DNA from: Streptomyces sp. Tu6071
GTDB lineage: Bacteria > Actinomycetota > Actinomycetes > Streptomycetales > Streptomycetaceae
Length of the DNA: 64,000 nucleotides
Direction: 5' to 3'
NCBI RefSeq assembly: GCF_000213055.1
Contig: NZ_CM001165.1
Location: 2,689,445-2,753,444 of the forward strand
Positions within the stretch are counted from its first letter, which is position 1. Each line of letters opens with the position of its first letter. The notes under the pieces were generated by a model. That model did not search any database, was not told the origin of the DNA, and saw only the letters and a program-made list of their open reading frames with translations. Positions 1,327 through 13,651 of this stretch are shown piece after piece. Position numbers and translations under genes: made by a program.

Positions 1327-1354
1327 TCGACACGGGCGCACGCGCCGGCACAAT
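1327..1354 (+). promoter_or_regulatory. Probable leaderless promoter of the Vsr-Z1 defence operon
   Basis: A -35 element TCGACA (1327-1332) and a -10 element CACAAT (1349-1354) are separated by 16 bp. The -10 ends seven bases before an in-frame GTG at 1362, so transcription would begin at or next to the start codon, as in the leaderless mRNAs common in Streptomyces. No Shine-Dalgarno sequence is present, which fits. This is inferred from sequence only. Confidence 0.5.
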
Positions 1355-1361
1355 GGCTCGC

Positions 1362-1808
1362 GTGCCGGATCTCCCCCTTCCGTCCTCGGTGGACGTGACG
1401 CGACGGATGAGCCGCCAGCGCTCCAGGGACACCGACCCCGAACGTGCCGTGCGGCGACTCGTGCACGCCGCCGGGCTGCGCTACCGCCTCCACCTGCGCG
1501 TCCCCGGCCTCGCCCGACGCACGATGGACTTCGGCTTCCCGCGTGAGCGTCTGGCGGTCTTCATGGACGGCTGCTTCTGGCACGGGTGCCCCGACCACGC
1601 GACCAGCCCTCGCAGCAACGCCGCCTGGTGGCGCGAGAAGCTCGACCGCAACATGGCCCGCGACACCGAGACCACCGCCCACCTGCGCGCCCTGGGCTGG
1701 ACGGTCCTGCGCTTCTGGGAGCACGAGACACCGGAGGAGGCGGCGGCGGTGGTGATCGCGGAGCTGAGGCGGAAGCGGGAGGAGCGTTCCGCCCCGCCTC
1801 CGCCCTGA
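1362..1808 (+). CDS. vsr: Very short patch repair (Vsr) DNA endonuclease
   Basis: Vsr nicks DNA 5' of the T in T:G mismatches that arise when 5-methylcytosine deaminates, and typically travels with cytosine-5 methyltransferases. The 148-residue protein has the family hallmarks: MSRQRSRDTDPE near residue 16, the catalytic Asp at about residue 56 (RRTMDFGF), and the zinc and active-site stretch FMDGCFWHGCPDH at about 68-79. I chose GTG 1362 because it fits the leaderless promoter; ATG 1353 would add three residues. It is the first gene of the rightward defence operon, and the two methyltransferase homologues downstream explain its presence. Confidence 0.88.
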   Translation: MPDLPLPSSVDVTRRMSRQRSRDTDPERAVRRLVHAAGLRYRLHLRVPGLARRTMDFGFPRERLAVFMDGCFWHGCPDHATSPRSNAAWWREKLDRNMARDTETTAHLRALGWTVLRFWEHETPEEAAAVVIAELRRKREERSAPPPP

Positions 1809-1870
1809 GGCGGCTGTCCCGACCACGTCCGTCCCCCTGTTTCGCTTCCCTGTCCGTGATCGAGGTCGCC

Positions 1871-3406
1871 ATGGCAGCTGTTTCCCCCTGGGAGTTCGAC
1901 GTCCCCACGGACGGCAGTCGCACGCTGCCGCCCGACGCCCGCTACATGGAGGCCGTGGCCAGTCAGGGGTACGGCTTCGAGGTGGCGATCGCGGACCTGG
2001 TGGACAACTCCATCGACGCCGGCGCACACGACGTGGTGATCCACTTCCTTCGCGACGGCGACAGGCTGACAAGCCTGCTGGTGGTGGACGACGGCAAAGG
2101 CATGACCGAGAAGGAACTGGACATCGCCATGACGGTGGGCGGTCGCCGGGACTACGTCGAGAACTCGCTCGGGATGTTCGGCACCGGTCTCAAATCGGCC
2201 TCCCTGAGCCAGGCCGAGGCCGTCACGGTCGTCAGCACCACCAAACGCACCCGCGCGGTCGGACGTCGCTGGCGCATGCAGCGGGCGGTCTCCGGTTTCG
2301 AGTGCGACGTCGTCCGCCCCGACTACGCGCAGCAGCTGATCGACAGGTACGCCGAGCGTCCGATCGTCTGGCAGGGCACGGTCGTTCGCTGGGACGGGGT
2401 GAAGGACTTCCCCCGCGGCGGGGAGGGGGGACAGACCGACCGCTACCTGCATCGAAGCATCAACAAATTGGGACTTCACCTCGGCCTCCACCTGCACCGC
2501 TTCTTGGCCCGGAGCGACTTCCACATCACCATCTCGGTGGAGGACGTGCGCACCGGCACGGAGTACGTGAACTTCGGTGTCGAGCCTTTGGATCCCTTCG
2601 CCCATCCCGTCTCGGGCCACGCCGGCTTTCCGCGCACCTACACGGCGAGGCTGTCGGACGGCACGCAGTTCACTCTCGGCGCCCACGTCTGGACTCCCCG
2701 CTCGAATCTCGACGAGTTCCGAGCCGTCGGCGGAGCGATGGAGAGGCAGGGCTTCTACTTCTACCGGCACGACCGTCTGGTGCAGGCCGGTGGTTGGAAC
2801 GGCTACCGCCAGCCCGAACAACACCTCGCGCTGGCACGAGTGGCCGTGGACCTCCCCTCGGCCGCGGACGCCTTCCGACTCACCGTGAAGAAGTCGGGTG
2901 TCGAGACCACCCCGGACTTCGCACGCTCCTTGGACGAGGCAACGGCCACGGACGGGTCGGCGTTCACGGACTACCTGGCCGCCGCCGAGACGGCCTACCG
3001 CGAGGCCAGGCGACGGGCCGGCACGACGCGTCGCGCCACCATCCCGCCCGGGGACGGCATCGCCCCGGCCGTCCGGGAGACCTTCGCCGAGGAGATGCCC
3101 GCGGTCCCGGGCGAGCCGCCCGTCTCCGTCGTCTGGCAGCGGTTCGACAACGACGACTTCTTCGCCGTTGATCGCGAGGAACGCGCCATCGCACTGAATC
3201 AGCGCTACCGAGCGGCGATCCTGGGCGGTCGTCGGGGCGGCCGTGACGACGCACCGGTGGTCAAGTCGCTCATGTATCTGCTGCTGCACCAGGTCTACGA
3301 GCACGAGTACAGCGGAAGCAGGGAGAAGGACAACCTCCAACTGTGGCAGTCGGTACTGGTGGCTGCCGCCGGCGCCGAGGTGGAAGGGACGGGCGAGGAT
3401 GCCTGA
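1871..3406 (+). CDS. MORC-like GHKL ATPase of a restriction-modification cluster
   Basis: A 511-residue GHKL-fold ATPase. The N box is ADLVDNSIDAGA (residues 41-52), the G1 box VVDDGKGM (71-78) and the G2 lid SLGMFGTGLKSAS (99-111), so the ATP site looks complete. Prokaryotic MORC and paraMORC ATPases with Z1 helicases, PD-(D/E)XK nucleases and Vsr are known from comparative genomics as parts of restriction-modification islands, where they are thought to remodel DNA or protein complexes. The ATG at 1871 has a GAGG five bases upstream. The last 8 bp overlap the start of the nuclease gene, which suggests translational coupling. Confidence 0.85.
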   Translation: MAAVSPWEFDVPTDGSRTLPPDARYMEAVASQGYGFEVAIADLVDNSIDAGAHDVVIHFLRDGDRLTSLLVVDDGKGMTEKELDIAMTVGGRRDYVENSLGMFGTGLKSASLSQAEAVTVVSTTKRTRAVGRRWRMQRAVSGFECDVVRPDYAQQLIDRYAERPIVWQGTVVRWDGVKDFPRGGEGGQTDRYLHRSINKLGLHLGLHLHRFLARSDFHITISVEDVRTGTEYVNFGVEPLDPFAHPVSGHAGFPRTYTARLSDGTQFTLGAHVWTPRSNLDEFRAVGGAMERQGFYFYRHDRLVQAGGWNGYRQPEQHLALARVAVDLPSAADAFRLTVKKSGVETTPDFARSLDEATATDGSAFTDYLAAAETAYREARRRAGTTRRATIPPGDGIAPAVRETFAEEMPAVPGEPPVSVVWQRFDNDDFFAVDREERAIALNQRYRAAILGGRRGGRDDAPVVKSLMYLLLHQVYEHEYSGSREKDNLQLWQSVLVAAAGAEVEGTGEDA

Positions 3407-4364
3407 GAGCCAGGTCCCCTGGACGAACGTCGAGCATTACCTCGCGAATCGCCTCGCGACCTCCTACCGGCTCTCCGACGCCTCGGCGCCGTTGGTCTCG
3501 TACGAGGTGGAGGACGGAAAGCGCCTGTGCCTCTACGTGGAACTCGGTCCGAAGGAATCGGCTGCTCATCCCTCCCACGAGCAGGTGAGGGTCGAGGAGA
3601 TACGTCACCGCGGCCTGCGAATGGCTCGGCTCAGCACCTCCGTGCCCGGTGTGGAGCGGGACTTCCACGATCTGCTCAACTCGGTCGCCGACCGGATGCT
3701 CGTGCACGGACGTCCCTTCGACCGCGCACTCGTCGAAACACTGGAGGCGTGGGAATCTCTGCTCCGCCGCCGACGCGGCCTCGATCCGCGGGAGCGCACC
3801 GGGCTCCTCGGTGAACTCGCCGCCCTCGGTTCGGTCGCCGGGCGGCTGGGTTGGGCCGAGGCCGTACGGTGCTGGCACGGTCCGCACCGCGAGGAACACG
3901 ACTTCGCCCTGCCCGACCTCGATGTCGAGGTGAAGACGACGACCGGGGAGGAGCCCCGGCACACCGTGCACGGACTCGGGCAGCTCACCCCGACCGGTTC
4001 GCGTCCCCTGTGGCTGGTCTCGCTCGGCCTCACCCGGGCGGGCAGCGGCGGGACCACCCTCACCGAGTACGTCGAGGAGGTGCGCGCCCGGATCGGCGAC
4101 GAGGCACCGGAGTCCTCCTCGCTCTTCGAGCGGGCGCTGCGACGTACCGGCTGGGTGGAGGACCGGCACGACGACGAACGCTGGCGCATGCGCAGGGCCG
4201 CACTGGCTCTTCTCGTGACCCCGTCCTTCCCCCGGCTGGGAACGGACAACCTGCCTCCCCAGGTGCGGCAGCGCGTCCACGACGTCCGCTACGAGATCGA
4301 CCTGTCCGGACTGGTCGCCCCGCAGGACGTCCCTGCCCCTCTCTCCGCCATCCGCCTCCCCTGA
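3399..4364 (+). CDS. PD-(D/E)XK nuclease-fold protein (DUF4420 type)
   Basis: A 321-residue protein and the likely DNA-cleaving partner of the cluster. The core shows a conserved helix Glu (GELAAL, about residue 139), then Asp168 and E177-V-K179 in HDFALPDLDVEVKTT, the D...ExK pattern of PD-(D/E)XK nucleases. Related proteins occur beside Z1 helicases and MORC-like ATPases. The start codon overlaps the end of the ATPase gene, and the Z1 gene follows after 8 bp, so these genes are probably co-translated as a complex. Cleavage specificity cannot be read from sequence. Confidence 0.82.
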   Translation: MPESQVPWTNVEHYLANRLATSYRLSDASAPLVSYEVEDGKRLCLYVELGPKESAAHPSHEQVRVEEIRHRGLRMARLSTSVPGVERDFHDLLNSVADRMLVHGRPFDRALVETLEAWESLLRRRRGLDPRERTGLLGELAALGSVAGRLGWAEAVRCWHGPHREEHDFALPDLDVEVKTTTGEEPRHTVHGLGQLTPTGSRPLWLVSLGLTRAGSGGTTLTEYVEEVRARIGDEAPESSSLFERALRRTGWVEDRHDDERWRMRRAALALLVTPSFPRLGTDNLPPQVRQRVHDVRYEIDLSGLVAPQDVPAPLSAIRLP

Positions 4365-4372
4365 CTGGACCC

Positions 4373-7300
4373 ATGACGAACATCGACGCCCTCCGCGTGA
4401 ACCTCCACCGATCCGCCCTCGCGGGCATGGTGCGGCGTCCGAAGGATCTTCGCCGGGCACTTGCCTACCACGCCGAGGACGAGGGCCCGGAGGCCGCACC
4501 GCTGGCGAACGAGGAGGACTTTCGCTCCGTGCTGCGCGCCGCCGCGAGCACGGATCCGCTCGTCGAACTGTGGCGCAAGCAGTTGACGCAGTGGGACTAC
4601 GCGGAGTCTGCCGACTGGGCCGGGAGAGCGCCGCGCACCGACGACCGGCGCGACGAGATCGGCGCTTTGCTCGGTCTGTCGGCGGAGACGGCCGCTCTCC
4701 TCACCGCGCTGATCCCGGTTCCCCGCGCTTCCTCGCCCGTGGTCATCAGCGACGCCTTCACCCCCTGGTACACCCCGCAGTCGGTCCGCGGACGGAGCTG
4801 GTACTGGCCGGCCTACCGGCGTGTCCTCCAGGACAAGGGGTGGTCGCCCGAGGCCGTCGCCGGTCTCGATCAGGCCACGGACCGTGTGGTGGAGCGCCTC
4901 GCCGACCCCGCCGCACCGACGGCCTACCAGTCGAAGGGGCTCGTCGTGGGACATGTGCAGTCGGGCAAGACCGCGAACTTCACGGGCGTCGTGGCCAAGG
5001 CGATGGACGCGGGATACCGTCTCGTCATCGTGCTCGGCGGCACGCTCAACCTGCTCCGCGCCCAGACCCAACGTCGTCTCGACATGGAGCTGGTGGGGCG
5101 GGAGAACATCCTGCGCGGCGCCGGGGCGGACGAGTCGGACTACGCGGACGACCCCGCCTGGGCCCGGGGTGACTTTCTCGCCCACGGTGGGATGCCCTCG
5201 GCGCTGGGCGGCTTCGACATCATCCGCATGACCACCAGGGACAGGGACTACCGCAGCCTTCTCCAGGGGATCGTGGCCCTGGAGGCCGAGAAGCAGGAAC
5301 CGTCACTGCCCCTGAACGATCCGCGCAACCTGCATCGCTCCCACGCCCGCCTCATGGTGGTGAAGAAGAACAAGTCGGTGCTCGGCAAACTCGTCAAGGA
5401 TCTCCGGAGGATCAAGACACCTCTGTCCGAGATCCCTGTACTCATCATCGATGACGAGTCCGACGAAGCATCCGTCAACACCGCGAACCCTCGGCGGGCC
5501 GACGCCAACCGCACGGCGATCAACGACAAGATCTCCGAGTTGCTGCGGATGCTGCCGCGCGCACAGTACGTCGGCTACACCGCGACCCCCTTCGCCAACG
5601 TCTTCATCGACCCGAGCGACAGCGAGGACATCTTTCCCAAGGACTTCATCGTCGCCCTCCCCCGCCCCGACGGATACATGGGAGTACAGGACTTCCACGA
5701 CCTCGACTCGCCCGTGGCGCCCGAGGACCGCACCGTGGCGAACTCCAACGAACTCGCGCACGTCCGGGACATCAGGCTCATCGACGACGAGGACTGCACC
5801 GACCTGCGCGAAGCGCTGGACATGTTCGTCCTGACCGCCGCGGTGAAGCTGTACCGGATGGATCACGACGATCTCGACGACCACTTCTACCGTCACCACA
5901 CGATGCTCGTCCACGAGTCGGTCCGCACCAAGGACCACCACGAACTTCGGGAACTGATCGACCGTTTGTGGGCCGAGTCGCGCTATTACAGCGCCGTCGG
6001 GCACGAGCGACTGCGCAAGCTCTTCGATGCCGACATCGCCCCCGTCTCACGGGTCCGGGCCGGATCGTGGTCGACGCCCGAGCACTACGACGACCTCGCT
6101 CCGTACGTCGGCGTGGCCGTGATGCGTGTCAGCGGGGACGGAGAGCCCACCATCGTGGTCAACGGGGACACGGAGAAGGGCTACGGGGAGGCCGACTTCG
6201 ACCGACGCTCGCTGTGGAAGATCATCATCGGCGGTCAGAAGCTCGCGCGCGGGTTCACCGTCGAGGGGCTCACCGTGACCTACTACCGCCGCCGGGCGAA
6301 CAACGCCTCCACCCTCATGCAGATGGGGCGCTGGTTCGGCTTCCGCGAAGGCTACCGGGACCTGGTACGCCTCTACGTCGGTCGTGGCGAGAAGGCCGGG
6401 ACCAAGGAGGTCGACCTCTACGAGGCGTTCGAGGCCATCTGTCGGGACGAGGAGTCCTTCCGCACGCAGCTGGCGCAGTACTCGACGTGGGTGGACGGCC
6501 GGCCCCAGGTGACGCCCGCGGGTGTTCCGCCGCTCGTCGCCCAACACCTTCCGTGGCTGCGGCCCACGAGCAAGAACAAGATGTACAACACGCGGGTCGT
6601 GGAACTCGCCAGCGCGGGCAAATGGGAGGAGCCGACCGCCTATCCCACGGAGAGCGTCGATCTCTCCCACAACACCGGCCTGTGGCTGCCCGTCCTCGAA
6701 TCCCTCGACTCCGCCACCACCTCCTTCTCGTACCACTACGACGCGGAGGAGCAGGAGCGCAGTTTCGATGCCCGGACGGGCCGACTGGAGCCCGAGCGGT
6801 TCCTGGAACTGGCGGACTCGATGCGCTGGACCACCGACCAGCAGTTCGCGCCGCTGCTGAGGTACCTCCACAAGATCAGTGCCCCGAGCGCCGGAATGCT
6901 CGACGACTGGCTCGTGCTCGCACCGCAGCACGCGACGGGCAAGCGGGCGGCCCTCATCGGTGATGCCTCACGGACGTACTCCTGGTTCGCTCGCGACCGG
7001 CGACGCGGGGCCGCGTTCGGTGCCGTCTCCGAGCCCCGGCATCGCGCCGCGGCCCTTCGTATCGCCGGCGCCCTGCCGGTGGGCGGCAACAGCACCACCG
7101 AAGCGCTTGTCCGGGCGCGGCGCGGTGTCGTCGCTCTCTACCCGGTGGTCGAGTCCCGGCATCGGGAAGCGGTGGAGAGGACCGGTCACGTGGCGGCCGG
7201 GAAAGTCGTTCTGGCCTTCTCCTTCGTGGCCCCGGCCGCCGCCCGCAGCAGCGACGGGAAGGTCGTGTGGTTCACGACCGTCGACTCCGGAAAGGGATGA
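4373..7300 (+). CDS. Z1-domain superfamily II helicase-like protein
   Basis: A 975-residue protein of the Z1 family, an SF2 helicase class associated with MORC-like restriction systems. Visible motifs are Walker A GHVQSGKT (193-200), Walker B LIIDDESDEASVN (about 357-369), the motif III-like YTATPFANV (402-410), and late SF2 motifs GGQKLARGF (about 619) and MQMGRWFGFREGY (about 648). All key residues appear present, so it is probably an active DNA translocase. The C-terminal third (about 750-975) is unassigned. It starts 8 bp after the nuclease gene. Confidence 0.88.
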   Translation: MTNIDALRVNLHRSALAGMVRRPKDLRRALAYHAEDEGPEAAPLANEEDFRSVLRAAASTDPLVELWRKQLTQWDYAESADWAGRAPRTDDRRDEIGALLGLSAETAALLTALIPVPRASSPVVISDAFTPWYTPQSVRGRSWYWPAYRRVLQDKGWSPEAVAGLDQATDRVVERLADPAAPTAYQSKGLVVGHVQSGKTANFTGVVAKAMDAGYRLVIVLGGTLNLLRAQTQRRLDMELVGRENILRGAGADESDYADDPAWARGDFLAHGGMPSALGGFDIIRMTTRDRDYRSLLQGIVALEAEKQEPSLPLNDPRNLHRSHARLMVVKKNKSVLGKLVKDLRRIKTPLSEIPVLIIDDESDEASVNTANPRRADANRTAINDKISELLRMLPRAQYVGYTATPFANVFIDPSDSEDIFPKDFIVALPRPDGYMGVQDFHDLDSPVAPEDRTVANSNELAHVRDIRLIDDEDCTDLREALDMFVLTAAVKLYRMDHDDLDDHFYRHHTMLVHESVRTKDHHELRELIDRLWAESRYYSAVGHERLRKLFDADIAPVSRVRAGSWSTPEHYDDLAPYVGVAVMRVSGDGEPTIVVNGDTEKGYGEADFDRRSLWKIIIGGQKLARGFTVEGLTVTYYRRRANNASTLMQMGRWFGFREGYRDLVRLYVGRGEKAGTKEVDLYEAFEAICRDEESFRTQLAQYSTWVDGRPQVTPAGVPPLVAQHLPWLRPTSKNKMYNTRVVELASAGKWEEPTAYPTESVDLSHNTGLWLPVLESLDSATTSFSYHYDAEEQERSFDARTGRLEPERFLELADSMRWTTDQQFAPLLRYLHKISAPSAGMLDDWLVLAPQHATGKRAALIGDASRTYSWFARDRRRGAAFGAVSEPRHRAAALRIAGALPVGGNSTTEALVRARRGVVALYPVVESRHREAVERTGHVAAGKVVLAFSFVAPAAARSSDGKVVWFTTVDSGKG

Positions 7301-7384
7301 CCTCTCGCGTCGATACGATGACGCCCGGATCCCCGACGGTCGCGGGGACCGTGCACTTCGGTGGGATCGGAAGGCAGGACGACA

Positions 7385-8359
7385 GTGGGTGAAGCAACTG
7401 CCATCGACCTGTGCGCAGGTGTCGGCGGGCAGGCGCTGGGACTCGAACAGGCCGGCTTCCGCATCGCCGCCGCGGTGGACGTGGATGTCGACTCCTGCGC
7501 GACTCTCCGGGCCAACCGTCCCGAGTGGCAGGTGATCAGGGGCGACCTCAAGGAGATCGAACCCGTCGAGTACGACTGTCTGGACGGGGCGGATCTCCTC
7601 TCCTGCGGGCTGCCCCGCAGCCCCTACACCATTGGCGGGAAGCAGCAGGGCACCGCCGATCCGAGGGACGCGCTCTCGGCCGCGCTGGACATGGCGGCGT
7701 ACGTGCGCCCCTCGGCGCTCCTGTTGGAGAACATCCCCGGATTCCTCACGTCCCCGCGCTTCGCCGCGATGCGCGAGGCGGTCGCGGAGGCAGTAGAGGA
7801 TCTCGGTTTCGTGGCGACCACCGCAGTGCTCGACGCCAAAGACTTCGGGGTGTCCCAGCGTCGCGAGCACGGCTTCCTGGTGGCGATGTCCGGGGAACGC
7901 ATGAAGCGCTTCTCCTGGCCCGTGCCCCTGGCCACCCCCTGCCCCACGCTCGGCGAGACCCTGCGGGCCTCCATGGGCGCCCGGGGCTGGCCGGGTGCGG
8001 ACGACTGGGCCGATCACGCGGACCAGCCCGCGCCGACGATCGTGGGGGGAGCCACCGGTCGCGGTGGCGCTGATCTGGGAGGCACCCGCTCGAAGAAGGC
8101 GTGGCGACGCTGGGACGTCTTCGGCGGCAGTCTGGGGAACGAGGTCCCGGGTCCCGAGTTCCGCATCGACAGGGATCTACCGGACAAGGACGGGCTGGTG
8201 AGCCTCACCGTGCCGCAGGTGGCCCTGTTGCAGGGCTTCACCGCGGACTGGCGGATCGCGGGCCGGAAGACGTCCACCTACCGCCAGATCAGTCAGACGA
8301 CGCCACCGCCCGTGGCGGCGGCGGTGGGACGGGAAGTACGAAAAGCCCTCGGCCGCTGA
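7385..8359 (+). CDS. Cytosine-5 DNA methyltransferase homologue lacking the catalytic cysteine
   Basis: A 324-residue protein with a clear C5-methyltransferase fold: motif I (AIDLCAGVGGQALGLEQAGF, residues 6-25), ENI motif VI (115-117), motif VIII (SQRREHGF) and a C-terminal motif X region. Motif IV, normally PCQ or PCP with the catalytic Cys, reads GLPRSPYT: Arg78 (codon CGC) stands where Cys (TGC) is expected. Methyl transfer by the usual covalent mechanism should therefore fail. It may be a structural, recognition or sensing subunit for the intact enzyme encoded just downstream, or a recent mutant. GTG 7385 is preferred because GGAAGGCAGG precedes it; GTG 7361 is the alternative. Confidence 0.82.
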   Translation: MGEATAIDLCAGVGGQALGLEQAGFRIAAAVDVDVDSCATLRANRPEWQVIRGDLKEIEPVEYDCLDGADLLSCGLPRSPYTIGGKQQGTADPRDALSAALDMAAYVRPSALLLENIPGFLTSPRFAAMREAVAEAVEDLGFVATTAVLDAKDFGVSQRREHGFLVAMSGERMKRFSWPVPLATPCPTLGETLRASMGARGWPGADDWADHADQPAPTIVGGATGRGGADLGGTRSKKAWRRWDVFGGSLGNEVPGPEFRIDRDLPDKDGLVSLTVPQVALLQGFTADWRIAGRKTSTYRQISQTTPPPVAAAVGREVRKALGR

Positions 8360-8403
8360 CCCGGAAACACCGATGCGATGCCCCGCCCCTCCTCCCCGCC
8401 CGA

Positions 8404-8409
8404 TAGCAT
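8404..8409 (+). promoter_or_regulatory. Probable leaderless -10 element of the second methyltransferase
   Basis: TAGCAT matches the TANNNT form of actinobacterial -10 boxes and ends eight bases before the ATG at 8418. No Shine-Dalgarno sequence is visible, so a leaderless transcript is plausible. No convincing -35 was found. If real, the active methyltransferase can be expressed apart from the upstream restriction genes, a common way to methylate host DNA first. Confidence 0.4.
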
Positions 8410-8417
8410 TCCGTCTC

Positions 8418-9650
8418 ATGTCCCTCACCACTGAGACGCTGGACGGCTCCCCCACAGCCCCCGCCTCTGGCGACCCGGGTATCTCGGTGGTGGACCTCTT
8501 CGCGGGCGCCGGAGGATTCTCCGCCGGCTTCCACGCCTACCGACCCGACGGTCCGGCGTCCTCGCCGTTCCGCACCCTCGCCGCCGTCGAGATGGACCCG
8601 GCAGCAGCCGCTACGTACGCGGCGAACTTCCCCTCCGCCAAGGTGAGCGCCATCAGGATCGAGGGGTGGGATCCCACTCCGTACGAAGGCGTTGACGTCA
8701 TCATGGGAGGGCCGCCCTGCCAGGGGTTCTCCGGCCTCAACCGCGACGACCTGAAGAAGAAACCGCCGAAGTCCGAGGACCCGCGGAACAAGTTGTGGCG
8801 CGAGTACGTACGCGCGGTGCAGGTCATCAAGCCGAAGATCTTCGTGATCGAGAACGTCGACCGTTTCCTGCGGTCACCCGAGTACGCGGCACTCTGCGCC
8901 GCCACGGAGGCCGATGGTCCGCTCGCGGACTACCACCTGACGGAAAAGGTCCTCAACGCGGCGGACTACGGCGTCCCGCAGGCGCGGCGCCGGGCCATCG
9001 TGATCGCCACCCGCAGGGATCTCGGCGAGCCCTTGCGGCACCCGATCCCGTCCCATCGTCGCGCGACGGACCAGCTGACGTTCGAGGAAGGCCGGGCCCC
9101 CTGGCTCGGCGTGTGGGACGCCGTGTTCGAGCACACCTTGCGCGTGCGGCTCAAGGAGGATCTTCCCCTCCGCACCGGCGCGCCCCTGGGCACCGACCTG
9201 CCCGGCGCGTTCAGCGGCAAGGAACTGCACATCCGCAGGAACCCCACGCCTCTGTCGCTCGCGCGCTACGCGGCCATCCCGCCGGGGGGCAACCGTTACG
9301 ACCTCACCGACAGGACGAGCGTCATCAACGGCGTTCCCGTCTATCTCTCGACCGAGAGCTGGGACAACCACACCTCGGGTTCCGGCGACGTCATGGGCAG
9401 ACTGCACAAGGACCGCCCCTCCGTCACCATCCGCACCGAGTTCTACAAACCGGAGAAGGGGCGGTACCTCCATCCCACGAAGGACCGCCCCATCACCCAC
9501 TGGGAGGCCGCGTTGATCCAAGGCTTCCCGGACACGTTCAAGTGGTACGGCTCCAAGGTGCAGATCGCCCGCCAGATCGGCAACGCCGTGCCCATCGGGC
9601 TCGGCCGCGCCCTGGCCGAGGTGATTCACCGCAAGCTCACCGCCGGCTGA
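8418..9650 (+). CDS. DNA (cytosine-5-)-methyltransferase, intact active site
   Basis: A 410-residue C5 DNA methyltransferase. Motif I is VVDLFAGAGGFSAGF (residues 24-38), motif IV GGPPCQGFSGLN with catalytic Cys101, motif VI IENVDRF (about 140), motif VIII PQARRRAI, and the C-terminal motif IX-X stretch TFKWYGSKVQIARQIGNAVP. It should protect the host by making 5-methylcytosine in the target site of the cluster, and its presence explains the Vsr gene. ATG 8418 fits the putative leaderless promoter; an in-frame ATG at 8373 is less likely. Its stop lies 6 bp from the stop of the convergent DUF6339-like gene. Confidence 0.9.
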   Translation: MSLTTETLDGSPTAPASGDPGISVVDLFAGAGGFSAGFHAYRPDGPASSPFRTLAAVEMDPAAAATYAANFPSAKVSAIRIEGWDPTPYEGVDVIMGGPPCQGFSGLNRDDLKKKPPKSEDPRNKLWREYVRAVQVIKPKIFVIENVDRFLRSPEYAALCAATEADGPLADYHLTEKVLNAADYGVPQARRRAIVIATRRDLGEPLRHPIPSHRRATDQLTFEEGRAPWLGVWDAVFEHTLRVRLKEDLPLRTGAPLGTDLPGAFSGKELHIRRNPTPLSLARYAAIPPGGNRYDLTDRTSVINGVPVYLSTESWDNHTSGSGDVMGRLHKDRPSVTIRTEFYKPEKGRYLHPTKDRPITHWEAALIQGFPDTFKWYGSKVQIARQIGNAVPIGLGRALAEVIHRKLTAG

Positions 9651-9656
9651 GCGCCG

Positions 9657-10529
9657 TCACCCCTCTCCCTCACGTTCCCTGCCGCGCACTGGCGCGCTTT
9701 CGAACAGCTCGGCGAACCAATCGGCGAGCGCTTCCGCCGAGGCCGAGGGGACGCTGCCGTCGCGCGGTCCGCGCGGCAGCGTGTCGTGGCGGACCGCGCT
9801 CTGCCCCGCGGCATCGAGCCACTCCGCGTACACCTCGGCGTCCGGCGGCTCGTCGGGCGCGAGCGCTTCGTGGACGAGCATGAAGGCCGCGTTGGCCGCC
9901 TTGGCTGCGGCGTTCATGTCGCGGCCGGTCCTGACACTGCCTCGGGTGCGCAGGCGCAGCAACGCCTGCGCGGCCGGCCGGTGCTGGATCATGCGCTGCC
10001 GGAGCACGGTGTTGAGCACGTCCTGGTCCGAGCAGGCCAGCTCGGCCGGGGCGTAGTTCTCGCCGTCACGGAAGAGTTCGGCCGCCCACCAGAGGCGCGA
10101 GAACGCTTGCGTCGCCCAGGGGCCGGTGAAGCGGGCCACCTGCCCCACCGCTCCGTCCTTGCTCCTCCAGCGCCATTGGACGTACTCGGGTGAAAGGCAC
10201 AGGGCGAGGAAGTTCCACAACCCCGAGTCGGCAGCCTCCGCCCGGGTCAGGCGCAGGGTCCAGTGCAGCCGGGGGGCGAGCCAGGCATCGCTCTCGGTGG
10301 GGCGGGTGTCGTCGAAGCGCGCCCGGGTCTCCTTCAGGAGTTCCACGACTGCTCCGGTCGTCCACCGCTCACCGTCGTCACCCACCGCCTCCGCCTGCCG
10401 GAGAAGCGCCGCGGAAGGGACCGTCTCCACACCGCGCAGCACGGACGGAGTGATCGCCCTGGCCGCGACGGCGTCGGAAAGCCTCCCCAACCGGCCGGGC
10501 TCCGGCGCCGTCATGGCTGTGGTGTTCAT
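9657..10529 (-). CDS. DUF6339-like protein, last gene of the XRE-GHKL operon
   Basis: A 290-residue, mostly helical protein that I recognise only as resembling the DUF6339 family. Notable is the aromatic stretch GLWNFLALCLSPEYVQWRW (about residues 94-112). There is no signal peptide, membrane segment or nuclease motif that I can see. ATG 10529 overlaps the stop of the upstream gene by 4 bp (ATGA), so it is translationally coupled. Function is unknown; context suggests a defence role. Confidence 0.72.
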   Translation of the reverse strand: MNTTAMTAPEPGRLGRLSDAVAARAITPSVLRGVETVPSAALLRQAEAVGDDGERWTTGAVVELLKETRARFDDTRPTESDAWLAPRLHWTLRLTRAEAADSGLWNFLALCLSPEYVQWRWRSKDGAVGQVARFTGPWATQAFSRLWWAAELFRDGENYAPAELACSDQDVLNTVLRQRMIQHRPAAQALLRLRTRGSVRTGRDMNAAAKAANAAFMLVHEALAPDEPPDAEVYAEWLDAAGQSAVRHDTLPRGPRDGSVPSASAEALADWFAELFESAPVRGREREGEG

Positions 10530-11497
10530 CGCGCACCCCTGTCGTTCGTCCGGCGCAGTGCCCGTACCGTCTCGGTCACCGTCTTCTGCGTACGGGTCCG
10601 GGTGGCGACCGCGTGCAGGAGCCGCGCGTGCAGGTCCGCCCCGTTGCCGCCCTCGCGGCGCCGCTCGACGGCCTCCCGCAGCGCGTCGTCCGGCGAAAGA
10701 TCGGGCCACAACTCGGGAAGCATGGACCTCAGCACCTCCTCGTGCCAGCCGCCCGGCCACTGCGGTCGGCCGTCCTCGTCCCGCTCCGTGCCGCAGGCGT
10801 AGAGCGCCGTGTGGAACAGTGCCTCCCACGCCTGGGCGGCGATGTGCGAGGCGAGAAGCTGCCGCACAGTGCGCTGCTCCGCCCCGGACGCCTTCTCCAT
10901 GAGCGCGCGGAACCCCTCCAGCGAGGAGTTGAGGTACAGCACCGGCTCGCCAGCCTCCGCGTCGACCGTCCACGGATCGTCGCGGAACTCCTCCAGGGCG
11001 GGCGTCTCCGTGAAGTCCTTCCACACCATTTTCAGCGTGCGTTTGCGGGTCGGTCGGGCCGAGTCGAAGTCCACCCTCCAGGGGGTCTCCGCCCGTCCCA
11101 CGAGCCGTGCGGGACCGTCTTCCAGATCTGCGGCGAACACGGCGTCCACCTGACAGTGCCCGATGTGGGCGGCGCGGTCGAGGTCCACGTCGGCCCGCCA
11201 CAGCCCGGGCGCCTCGTTCTTCGTCAGGAAGGAGTGGCGGACGTGCGTGCGCGAGTTGGTCACGATCATGAGGCAACGCACGTTCCGCCAGGGGCCGTCG
11301 GCGATCTCCTTCGGGTCGGCCGTAACCTCCATGACGAGACGGGCGGTGCGCCATCGGCGGTCGATGCCGTGCAGCGCCACGACGTTCTCCTGGTCGGAGA
11401 TGCGTGCCAGCTCCACGGGAAGGTTGTCGAGCAGGACGCGCGCCGGGCGCAACCGGACGTCGCCCACGAGCTGCGGGTAGGGGTAAAGACTCTTCAC
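10526..11497 (-). CDS. Unrecognised protein, middle gene of the XRE-GHKL operon
   Basis: A 323-residue protein of no family I recognise. The N-terminal half is rich in alternating hydrophobic and charged residues typical of beta strands (VVALHGIDRRWRTARLVMEV); the second half is helical with many Arg and Glu and a basic end. The GTG start at 11497 overlaps the stop of the XRE-GHKL gene (GTGA) and its own stop overlaps the next start (ATGA). Such tight coupling argues for a fixed stoichiometric complex of the three products. Confidence 0.72.
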   Translation of the reverse strand: MKSLYPYPQLVGDVRLRPARVLLDNLPVELARISDQENVVALHGIDRRWRTARLVMEVTADPKEIADGPWRNVRCLMIVTNSRTHVRHSFLTKNEAPGLWRADVDLDRAAHIGHCQVDAVFAADLEDGPARLVGRAETPWRVDFDSARPTRKRTLKMVWKDFTETPALEEFRDDPWTVDAEAGEPVLYLNSSLEGFRALMEKASGAEQRTVRQLLASHIAAQAWEALFHTALYACGTERDEDGRPQWPGGWHEEVLRSMLPELWPDLSPDDALREAVERRREGGNGADLHARLLHAVATRTRTQKTVTETVRALRRTNDRGAR

Positions 11498-13593
11498 GAC
11501 CGCACCACCCGGGCGGCCTGTGCACGCGGCAGTTCGACCTGAAGGCTGGAGACACGGGCGGGTACCGGATGGCTGCGCGGATCGGTCACACCCTTGAACA
11601 CAGCCGTCCTCGCCCCCGCGGTGAAGCTGAGGTGTCCATCCGCTGTGAGTTCGCAGTTCGACCCCGGTACGAGAACGCCGGCCCACGAAACGGGCGTCCT
11701 GCCACCGTCCTGGTTCACGAAGGAGGCGGTCGGAGCCAGTACCCAAGAGGCTTCGCGCTCGGGCAGGCGCACCATGACCTCGACGCGCCAGGCGCCGGCG
11801 GCGGTGACCCCGCCGGTCAGTGAACGGACGGTCGGGAACCCCGAGACCCTGACGGGCCTGCCCGCTCGCGCGGGCGCCTCCAGCACCAGGAGTTCCCTCA
11901 GCACGGCAGGCCCCTCCTCGGCGTCGTCGTCGGGGATCTCCACCCGTAGCAGGTCCCGAATCGCCTGTTCCGCCGCGGCCTTGAAGTCGAGGACGCTCTT
12001 GCGCGCGCCGCGCACATAGGTCGCGGTGAGGTCGTCGGTGCCCGTCCAGTCGTTGTGCTCCGGCGGTTCCGACGCACGGAGCAACAGCTCGGCGGCGGTG
12101 ACGTCCGGGGTGGATCTCCCGGTGGCCGCGCCCGCGAGCAGGACCGCCTGGAAGTTGGTGTGTCCCAGCGGCAGATCCCCCACGCGCTTCCGCTTCACGA
12201 CCATGCGCGTCGCCCGCATCATGGTGAGCCGATCGGCCGGCTCCTCGGCACCGGCAGCGGGTGTCACGAGCAGTACGGCCTCGTGCACGCCCGCAGGACC
12301 CGCCGCGGGATCGTCCTTGCGCCTGACCAGCTCCAGGGGCACGCGCGCCGCCACGACGTCCGTGCGCGCGGACAGGCGGGAGACGGTCTCGCCGTCGAGG
12401 AACGCTTTCACCGCACGCGACTTGGCGGGAGCGGCGGTGAAGGGGTCGACCTCCGTGCGGGGCACGACGACCTCACCGTTGCGCCATGCCTCCACGGTGG
12501 CACGCAGCAGGGCCGGGCGGTTCTCGCCCGCCACCATCGCCGCCCAGAAGTTGTCGCCCAACTCCTTCATCAGGCACGCGTGCATCTCGTCGAGTTCGGC
12601 GCTGACTCCCGAGCCGTCGTAGGCACCGACGACGAGGAAGGACGTTCCCGGCAGGTCGCTCTCGCGTTCCAGAAGCAGTTCCCTCGCCGCAGCGCTGTCG
12701 GCCCACCAGGAACGCACGGAGTCACCCCGTTCCTGGTCACGGATGCCGAACCAGGCCGGTCCCGCGTACTCCCGCTCCTCGGGGAGGGCGTGCCACGGCA
12801 GTTCGAGCCGGCCCGCCAGTCTGCGATCGGTGCGGCCGTCCTGCTGCTCCGACAGAACGCTGTTCACCAGGACCAGCCCGAACCTGCTCGCCGCCCACAG
12901 CGTCGCCTTGCCCATCCCGTAGGACCCCCCCTGGACACCGGCCTTGCCACTGTCCAGGGTCCGGCGGACAACACGGGCGAAGCGACCGTCGTCGTACTCG
13001 GGACCGGTGAGCCCGTTCGCGTTGTAGTCGTCCACGCGCAACAGGTGCAGCCGGTCTGTGCGTTCCAACTCGCCCAAGCCGTCCGCGAGTACACGGCCGG
13101 ACTTCTGCGAGCGGTCCGCCGCCGCCCGCAGGTGCGGTCGCAGCACGTCCCACCGGAGCGCGTCCAGGAAGCGCCGGAGGGGGAGGCCGCTCAGTTCGTG
13201 CAGGACGTACCGGGAAAGAACGGGCTCCTGGACCGAAAGCTGTTCGTCCAGGCTGTTCTGAGTCGCCTCCCTTGCCAGAACTCCCAGGTCGGCCGTGAAG
13301 GCGAAAGCCGCGGCGTTGCCGCCGCTCCGGCTGCCGTCGGCAGGCGCCGGCTGGAACACCCACTCCGCCTCACCGCTGCCCACCTGCGGGGCTCTGCGTT
13401 CGACGGCGTCCACCGTGGGGACCCCGAACGCCTCCGCCACCCGTTGGATCTTGTCCATACGGGGCACGGAGCGCCCCTTGGTCCAAGCGTTCACAGCGGC
13501 GGGGGTCACCTCGACCGCTTCGGCCAGTTCCCGCTGCGTCATTCCCCTCTGCGCCAGCTGATCGTTCAGCCAGTCGCCAAAACTTGTCGCCAT
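11494..13593 (-). CDS. XRE helix-turn-helix fused to a GHKL ATPase
   Basis: A 699-residue fusion. Residues 1-62 are a Cro/C1-type helix-turn-helix (MTQRELAEAVEVTPAAVNAW...SVPRMDKIQRVAEAFGV). A GHKL ATPase follows: N box LAREATQNSLDE (107-118), G1 RVDDYNANGLTG (186-197) and glycine lid GGSYGMGKATL (222-232). About 450 C-terminal residues are unassigned and look beta-rich near the end. It probably both represses its own operon and acts as an ATP-driven switch. A GGGGGAGGA stretch almost touches the ATG, an unusually short spacing. It resembles paraMORC ATPases of restriction islands but is not closely like the MORC-like ATPase at 1871. Confidence 0.82.
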   Translation of the reverse strand: MATSFGDWLNDQLAQRGMTQRELAEAVEVTPAAVNAWTKGRSVPRMDKIQRVAEAFGVPTVDAVERRAPQVGSGEAEWVFQPAPADGSRSGGNAAAFAFTADLGVLAREATQNSLDEQLSVQEPVLSRYVLHELSGLPLRRFLDALRWDVLRPHLRAAADRSQKSGRVLADGLGELERTDRLHLLRVDDYNANGLTGPEYDDGRFARVVRRTLDSGKAGVQGGSYGMGKATLWAASRFGLVLVNSVLSEQQDGRTDRRLAGRLELPWHALPEEREYAGPAWFGIRDQERGDSVRSWWADSAAARELLLERESDLPGTSFLVVGAYDGSGVSAELDEMHACLMKELGDNFWAAMVAGENRPALLRATVEAWRNGEVVVPRTEVDPFTAAPAKSRAVKAFLDGETVSRLSARTDVVAARVPLELVRRKDDPAAGPAGVHEAVLLVTPAAGAEEPADRLTMMRATRMVVKRKRVGDLPLGHTNFQAVLLAGAATGRSTPDVTAAELLLRASEPPEHNDWTGTDDLTATYVRGARKSVLDFKAAAEQAIRDLLRVEIPDDDAEEGPAVLRELLVLEAPARAGRPVRVSGFPTVRSLTGGVTAAGAWRVEVMVRLPEREASWVLAPTASFVNQDGGRTPVSWAGVLVPGSNCELTADGHLSFTAGARTAVFKGVTDPRSHPVPARVSSLQVELPRAQAARVVRS

Positions 13594-13630: not shown

Positions 13631-13651
13631 CCGGGAAGTTAATTTTCCCGG
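13631..13651. promoter_or_regulatory. Palindrome 1, candidate operator of the XRE-GHKL operon
   Basis: A perfect 7-bp inverted repeat, CCGGGAA-N7-TTCCCGG, 38 bp upstream of the XRE-GHKL start codon. Its AT-rich centre stands out in this GC-rich DNA. Its centre is 20 bp from that of palindrome 2, so both would face the same side of the helix. Confidence 0.55.

Follow-up and report, generated by a model that had tools for sequence, protein, structure and literature searches.

The predicted nine-gene DNA-defense island in a 64,000-nucleotide stretch of the Streptomyces sp. Tu6071 genome (the window) looks like a single mix-and-match system, in which a constant core is joined to cassettes that differ between bacteria. 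The exchanged cassettes look like DNA-unwinding and DNA-cutting gene sets, and the core appears to include dcm1, a homologue of cytosine-C5 methyltransferases (C5-MTases) that lacks the catalytic Cys. The three leftward genes, L1, L2, and L3, are called the trio here, and the nine genes minus dcm1 and dcm2 encode the seven non-MTase proteins (Table 1). We tentatively propose, as a possibility short of a probable one, that the dead MTase is dedicated to telling self from non-self within a restriction platform of plug-in design. Together with the XRE-ATPase trio, it would recognize target sites that its live partner left unmethylated and would hand them to any plugged-in helicase-nuclease cassette, whether Mza-like, sacsin/DISARM-like, NERD/DISARM-like, or two together.

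The pseudo-methyltransferase dcm1 and its partner

Judged from its sequence, dcm1 has lost the catalytic residue and is otherwise strongly conserved. The Cys was missing from all dcm1 matches at the trio loci (111/111 matches at 120 loci). A block that we take, from the general layout of C5-MTases, to belong to the target recognition domain (GG....GG.D.G....K..W) was retained, per position, in 116 to 119 of 118 to 119 dead relatives and in 26 to 28 of 28 Cys-bearing ones. On this tree, the catalytic loss is consistent with a single event early in the actinobacterial spread of the loci. In the Streptosporangiaceae loci L169, L172, L175, L177, L179, L183, and L231, Ser rather than Arg replaces the Cys, and their rows cluster. 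A type II restriction-modification system with two active C5-MTases would have the catalytic Cys in both; dcm1 has Arg86. The top PADLOC match of dcm1 was DruM2/DruM (3.2e-94), and beside it no other Dru protein of Druantia was matched by the seven non-MTase proteins (PADLOC).

The Cys of dcm2 was kept in 121 of 126 called proteins, the remaining 5 having no residue at that position. A conserved dead methyltransferase next to a live one is a concrete, testable reader candidate for the discrimination of self from foreign DNA in helicase-based restriction (DISARM, Mza), and as a rule for annotation, the "two methyltransferases" of such islands are usually one enzyme and one pseudo-enzyme. A dead C5-MTase as a regular companion of the trio was not found in the open-access PMC literature searched.

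The same pair could instead form one heterodimeric methyltransferase, with dcm1 recognizing the target and dcm2 catalyzing, on the model of two-subunit C5-MTases or DNMT3L, while the trio and cassettes restrict independently. Most loci indeed pair a dead dcm1 with an intact dcm2, the recognition block is retained in dcm1, and dcm1-dcm2 distances correlate beyond L1 (partial correlation, 0.31); for vsr, L2, L3, and the cassette genes, coevolution with the MTases beyond L1 was small and mixed. However, dcm2 resembles full-length C5-MTases with motifs of its own, and four loci (L279, L282, L283, and L284) have a dcm1 unaccompanied by dcm2, placed at the distal end of the sacsin cassette, which weakens the heterodimer without being fatal to it. 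We regard it as unlikely, and the rival explanations are not mutually exclusive.

A dcm1-family match was absent from four trio loci. No MTase was called in 6/59 trio loci and a single one in another 6/59, yet dcm1 occupies the distal end of the cassette in six loci (L279 to L284), and MTase-less trio loci were rejected as a category. They are doubtful because the gene caller overlooks genes: L3 was called in 54/59 loci and found by tblastn in 59/59.

Proposed exchangeable cassettes and known systems

The original prediction assigned the rightward genes to a MORC-type restriction cluster, and this held: the set of Iyer et al. (2008; PMC2292703) is all present, with MORC, superfamily II (SFII) helicase, restriction endonuclease (RE)-fold nuclease, methylase, and Vsr together. 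The rightward half is of an already known kind. The excerpts of that paper covered here describe MORC with SFII helicase, RE-fold nuclease, Vsr, and cytosine methylases, a neighborhood that the island shares; in some of these neighborhoods a further GHKL family (paraMORC1) is present as well, and elsewhere MORC is replaced by GHKL families. The same excerpts contain no XRE-fused L1 with L2 and DUF6339, no DISARM-like cassette exchange, no dead methyltransferase, and no L1 operator. As described in part of PMC8011034, HEF_HK/Response_reg_2 loci lie near restriction-modification genes, and their GHKL-type proteins are linked to paraMORCs and have Vsr and C5-MTases as neighbors. Those loci have two-component-like parts, whereas none were seen in the island, and the main text of that paper has no XRE, HTH, or DUF6339.

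The island as originally observed was confirmed in part, and the further claim that both operons make one larger system was likewise borne out in part. Trio relatives adjoin DrmA- and DrmB-like genes plus C5-MTases. This arrangement is shared with DISARM-type/ARMADA systems (PMC12458937, seen in excerpt); no GHKL, DUF6339, or sacsin appears in the main text of that paper. None of the seven non-MTase proteins matched DrmA or DrmB (PADLOC), and no DrmA-like gene was matched in the window's genome, an empty search that by itself shows little. Locus L272, in a genome (G320) that lacks an L1 match, holds part of a sacsin helicase, a NERD-helicase, DrmA, DrmB, dcm2, a dead dcm1, and vsr. Sacsin-helicase matches in L164 and L194 scored about 30 bits each; the locus of genome G217 (L152) was rejected as mixed, its nearby sacsin-helicase match being 17 bits.

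Mza is an anti-phage system composed of MzaA to MzaE, and the island is presumably akin to it, a likeness drawn from profiles. The NCBIfam equivalog cut-offs were missed by far (MzaC, 272.8 of 1500 bits; MzaB and MzaD in Table 1), and no MzaA or MzaE profile was found among the nine proteins (PADLOC and NCBIfam; for the two MTases, among the best 25 PADLOC matches). The island differs in adding Vsr, the dead and live C5-MTases, and the trio. Helicase cassettes exchanged around a constant core, if real, would unite the separately filed Mza and DISARM-like systems in one platform and show the origin of new combinations. The trio as a core common to Mza-like and DISARM-like cassettes was not found in the open-access PMC papers searched.

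The leftward trio and a candidate operator

L1 had been predicted to be a second GHKL ATPase fused to a DNA-binding domain. The DNA-binding part stands, HTH_3 being present in 46/49 L1 relatives; the GHKL part is not proven, although the motif pattern fits and PDC-M33A matches. Pfam gave no ATPase domain in the window's L1 or in the 25 families listed for 49 relatives, a PDB sequence search matched essentially the helix-turn-helix (HTH) alone, and hhalign gave no match to MORC or sacsin ATPases and 98.7% to an equally unlabeled family. For a paraMORC-type GHKL plus S5 fold in L1, motifs alone were seen, with no Pfam, PDB, or MORC profile match. Among 120 listed of 1,099 relatives, most are named helix-turn-helix regulator or hypothetical, and a search among phages gave one partial match (22% identity). 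An extra domain in the long L1 frames (1,045 to 1,198 amino acids) of NERD loci was rejected, as the surplus may be a calling artifact. The ratio of nonsynonymous to synonymous substitutions (dN/dS) speaks against the leftward operon being a decayed remnant. A further gene in the window's genome (G000:C1:4356691-4357263; frame of 1,082 amino acids) has a sacsin-like ATPase stretch, with 40% identity over 187 amino acids.

L2 matched nothing in Pfam, PADLOC, NCBIfam, or the PDB, and nothing on plasmids. It had 56 homologues, and all those bearing an organism name were actinobacterial; homology to the small gene following the GHKL-like gene of L078 was set aside as weak (hhalign, 24 and lower). 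The PDB search with L3 gave one match (E, 0.44). L1 and L3 matched components A and C of the PADLOC candidate PDC-M33, L2 matched no PADLOC model, and a B component is assumed from the naming alone. The PADLOC listing gives PDC-M33 no description, and the name was not found in open-access PMC papers.

The trio might also be a mere control module. L1 would then be a Cro/C1-type repressor, equipped with an ATPase-like sensor part, and would set defense-gene expression, with L2 and L3 as its sensors. The prevalence of HTH_3 suits this view, as does a putative operator limited to the L1 promoter and the interval that it shares with the divergent sacsin cassette; the loci compared include repeats of one genome, and the class split is approximate because weak sacsin-helicase matches entered the class labels. 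The spacing of the window's candidate operator equals one dyad of the relatives' operator, and the half-sites differ. An L1 operator was not found in the open-access PMC literature searched. The control module, like the heterodimer, is compatible with the mix-and-match reading; we give it a low probability.

Layout of the island

Table 1. Genes and sequence elements of the island (window positions)
Feature	Position	Strand	Evidence
vsr, Vsr-type nicking endonuclease	1353..1808	+	Pfam Vsr 6.6e-16; NCBIfam TIGR00632 111.6 bits, above cut-off 97.85
MORC-like GHKL ATPase, MzaB relative	1871..3406	+	HATPase_c_3 3.5e-23; PADLOC MzaB 9.4e-30; NCBIfam MzaB 120.5 bits, cut-off 850
DUF4420 PD-(D/E)XK nuclease, MzaD relative	3399..4364	+	Pfam DUF4420 8.5e-46; NCBIfam MzaD 88.8 bits, cut-off 420
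Gene between DUF4420 nuclease and dcm1	4373..7300	+	
dcm1, C5-MTase homologue without catalytic Cys (pseudo-MTase)	7361..8359	+	Pfam DNA_methylase 4.5e-39; Arg86 at catalytic Cys of M.HaeIII
Arg86 codon of dcm1, motif IV Cys position	7616..7618	+	
dcm1 residues 229-248, presumed target recognition region	8045..8104	+	Conserved block (see text)
dcm2, C5-MTase	8373..9650	+	Pfam DNA_methylase 1.8e-55; GGPPCQGF intact
L3, DUF6339 protein, PDC-M33C-like	9657..10529	-	Pfam DUF6339 6e-11; PADLOC PDC-M33C 4.8e-07
L2, orphan protein without family	10526..11497	-	No match in profile and PDB searches
L1, XRE/Cro-C1 HTH fused to candidate paraMORC-like GHKL ATPase	11494..13593	-	HTH_3 4e-12; PADLOC PDC-M33A 4.6e-17; GHKL motifs recognized by eye alone
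Candidate L1 operator, inverted repeat, 7-nt arms, 7-nt spacer	13631..13651	-	Suggestive only
Second inverted repeat upstream of L1	13654..13668	-	Suggestive only

By tblastn, vsr was present in 54/59 trio loci. Across window positions 1001 to 24000, G+C content per kb was 0.645 to 0.731 in the island versus 0.670 to 0.765 in the right flank, which is in line with lateral gain without proving it.
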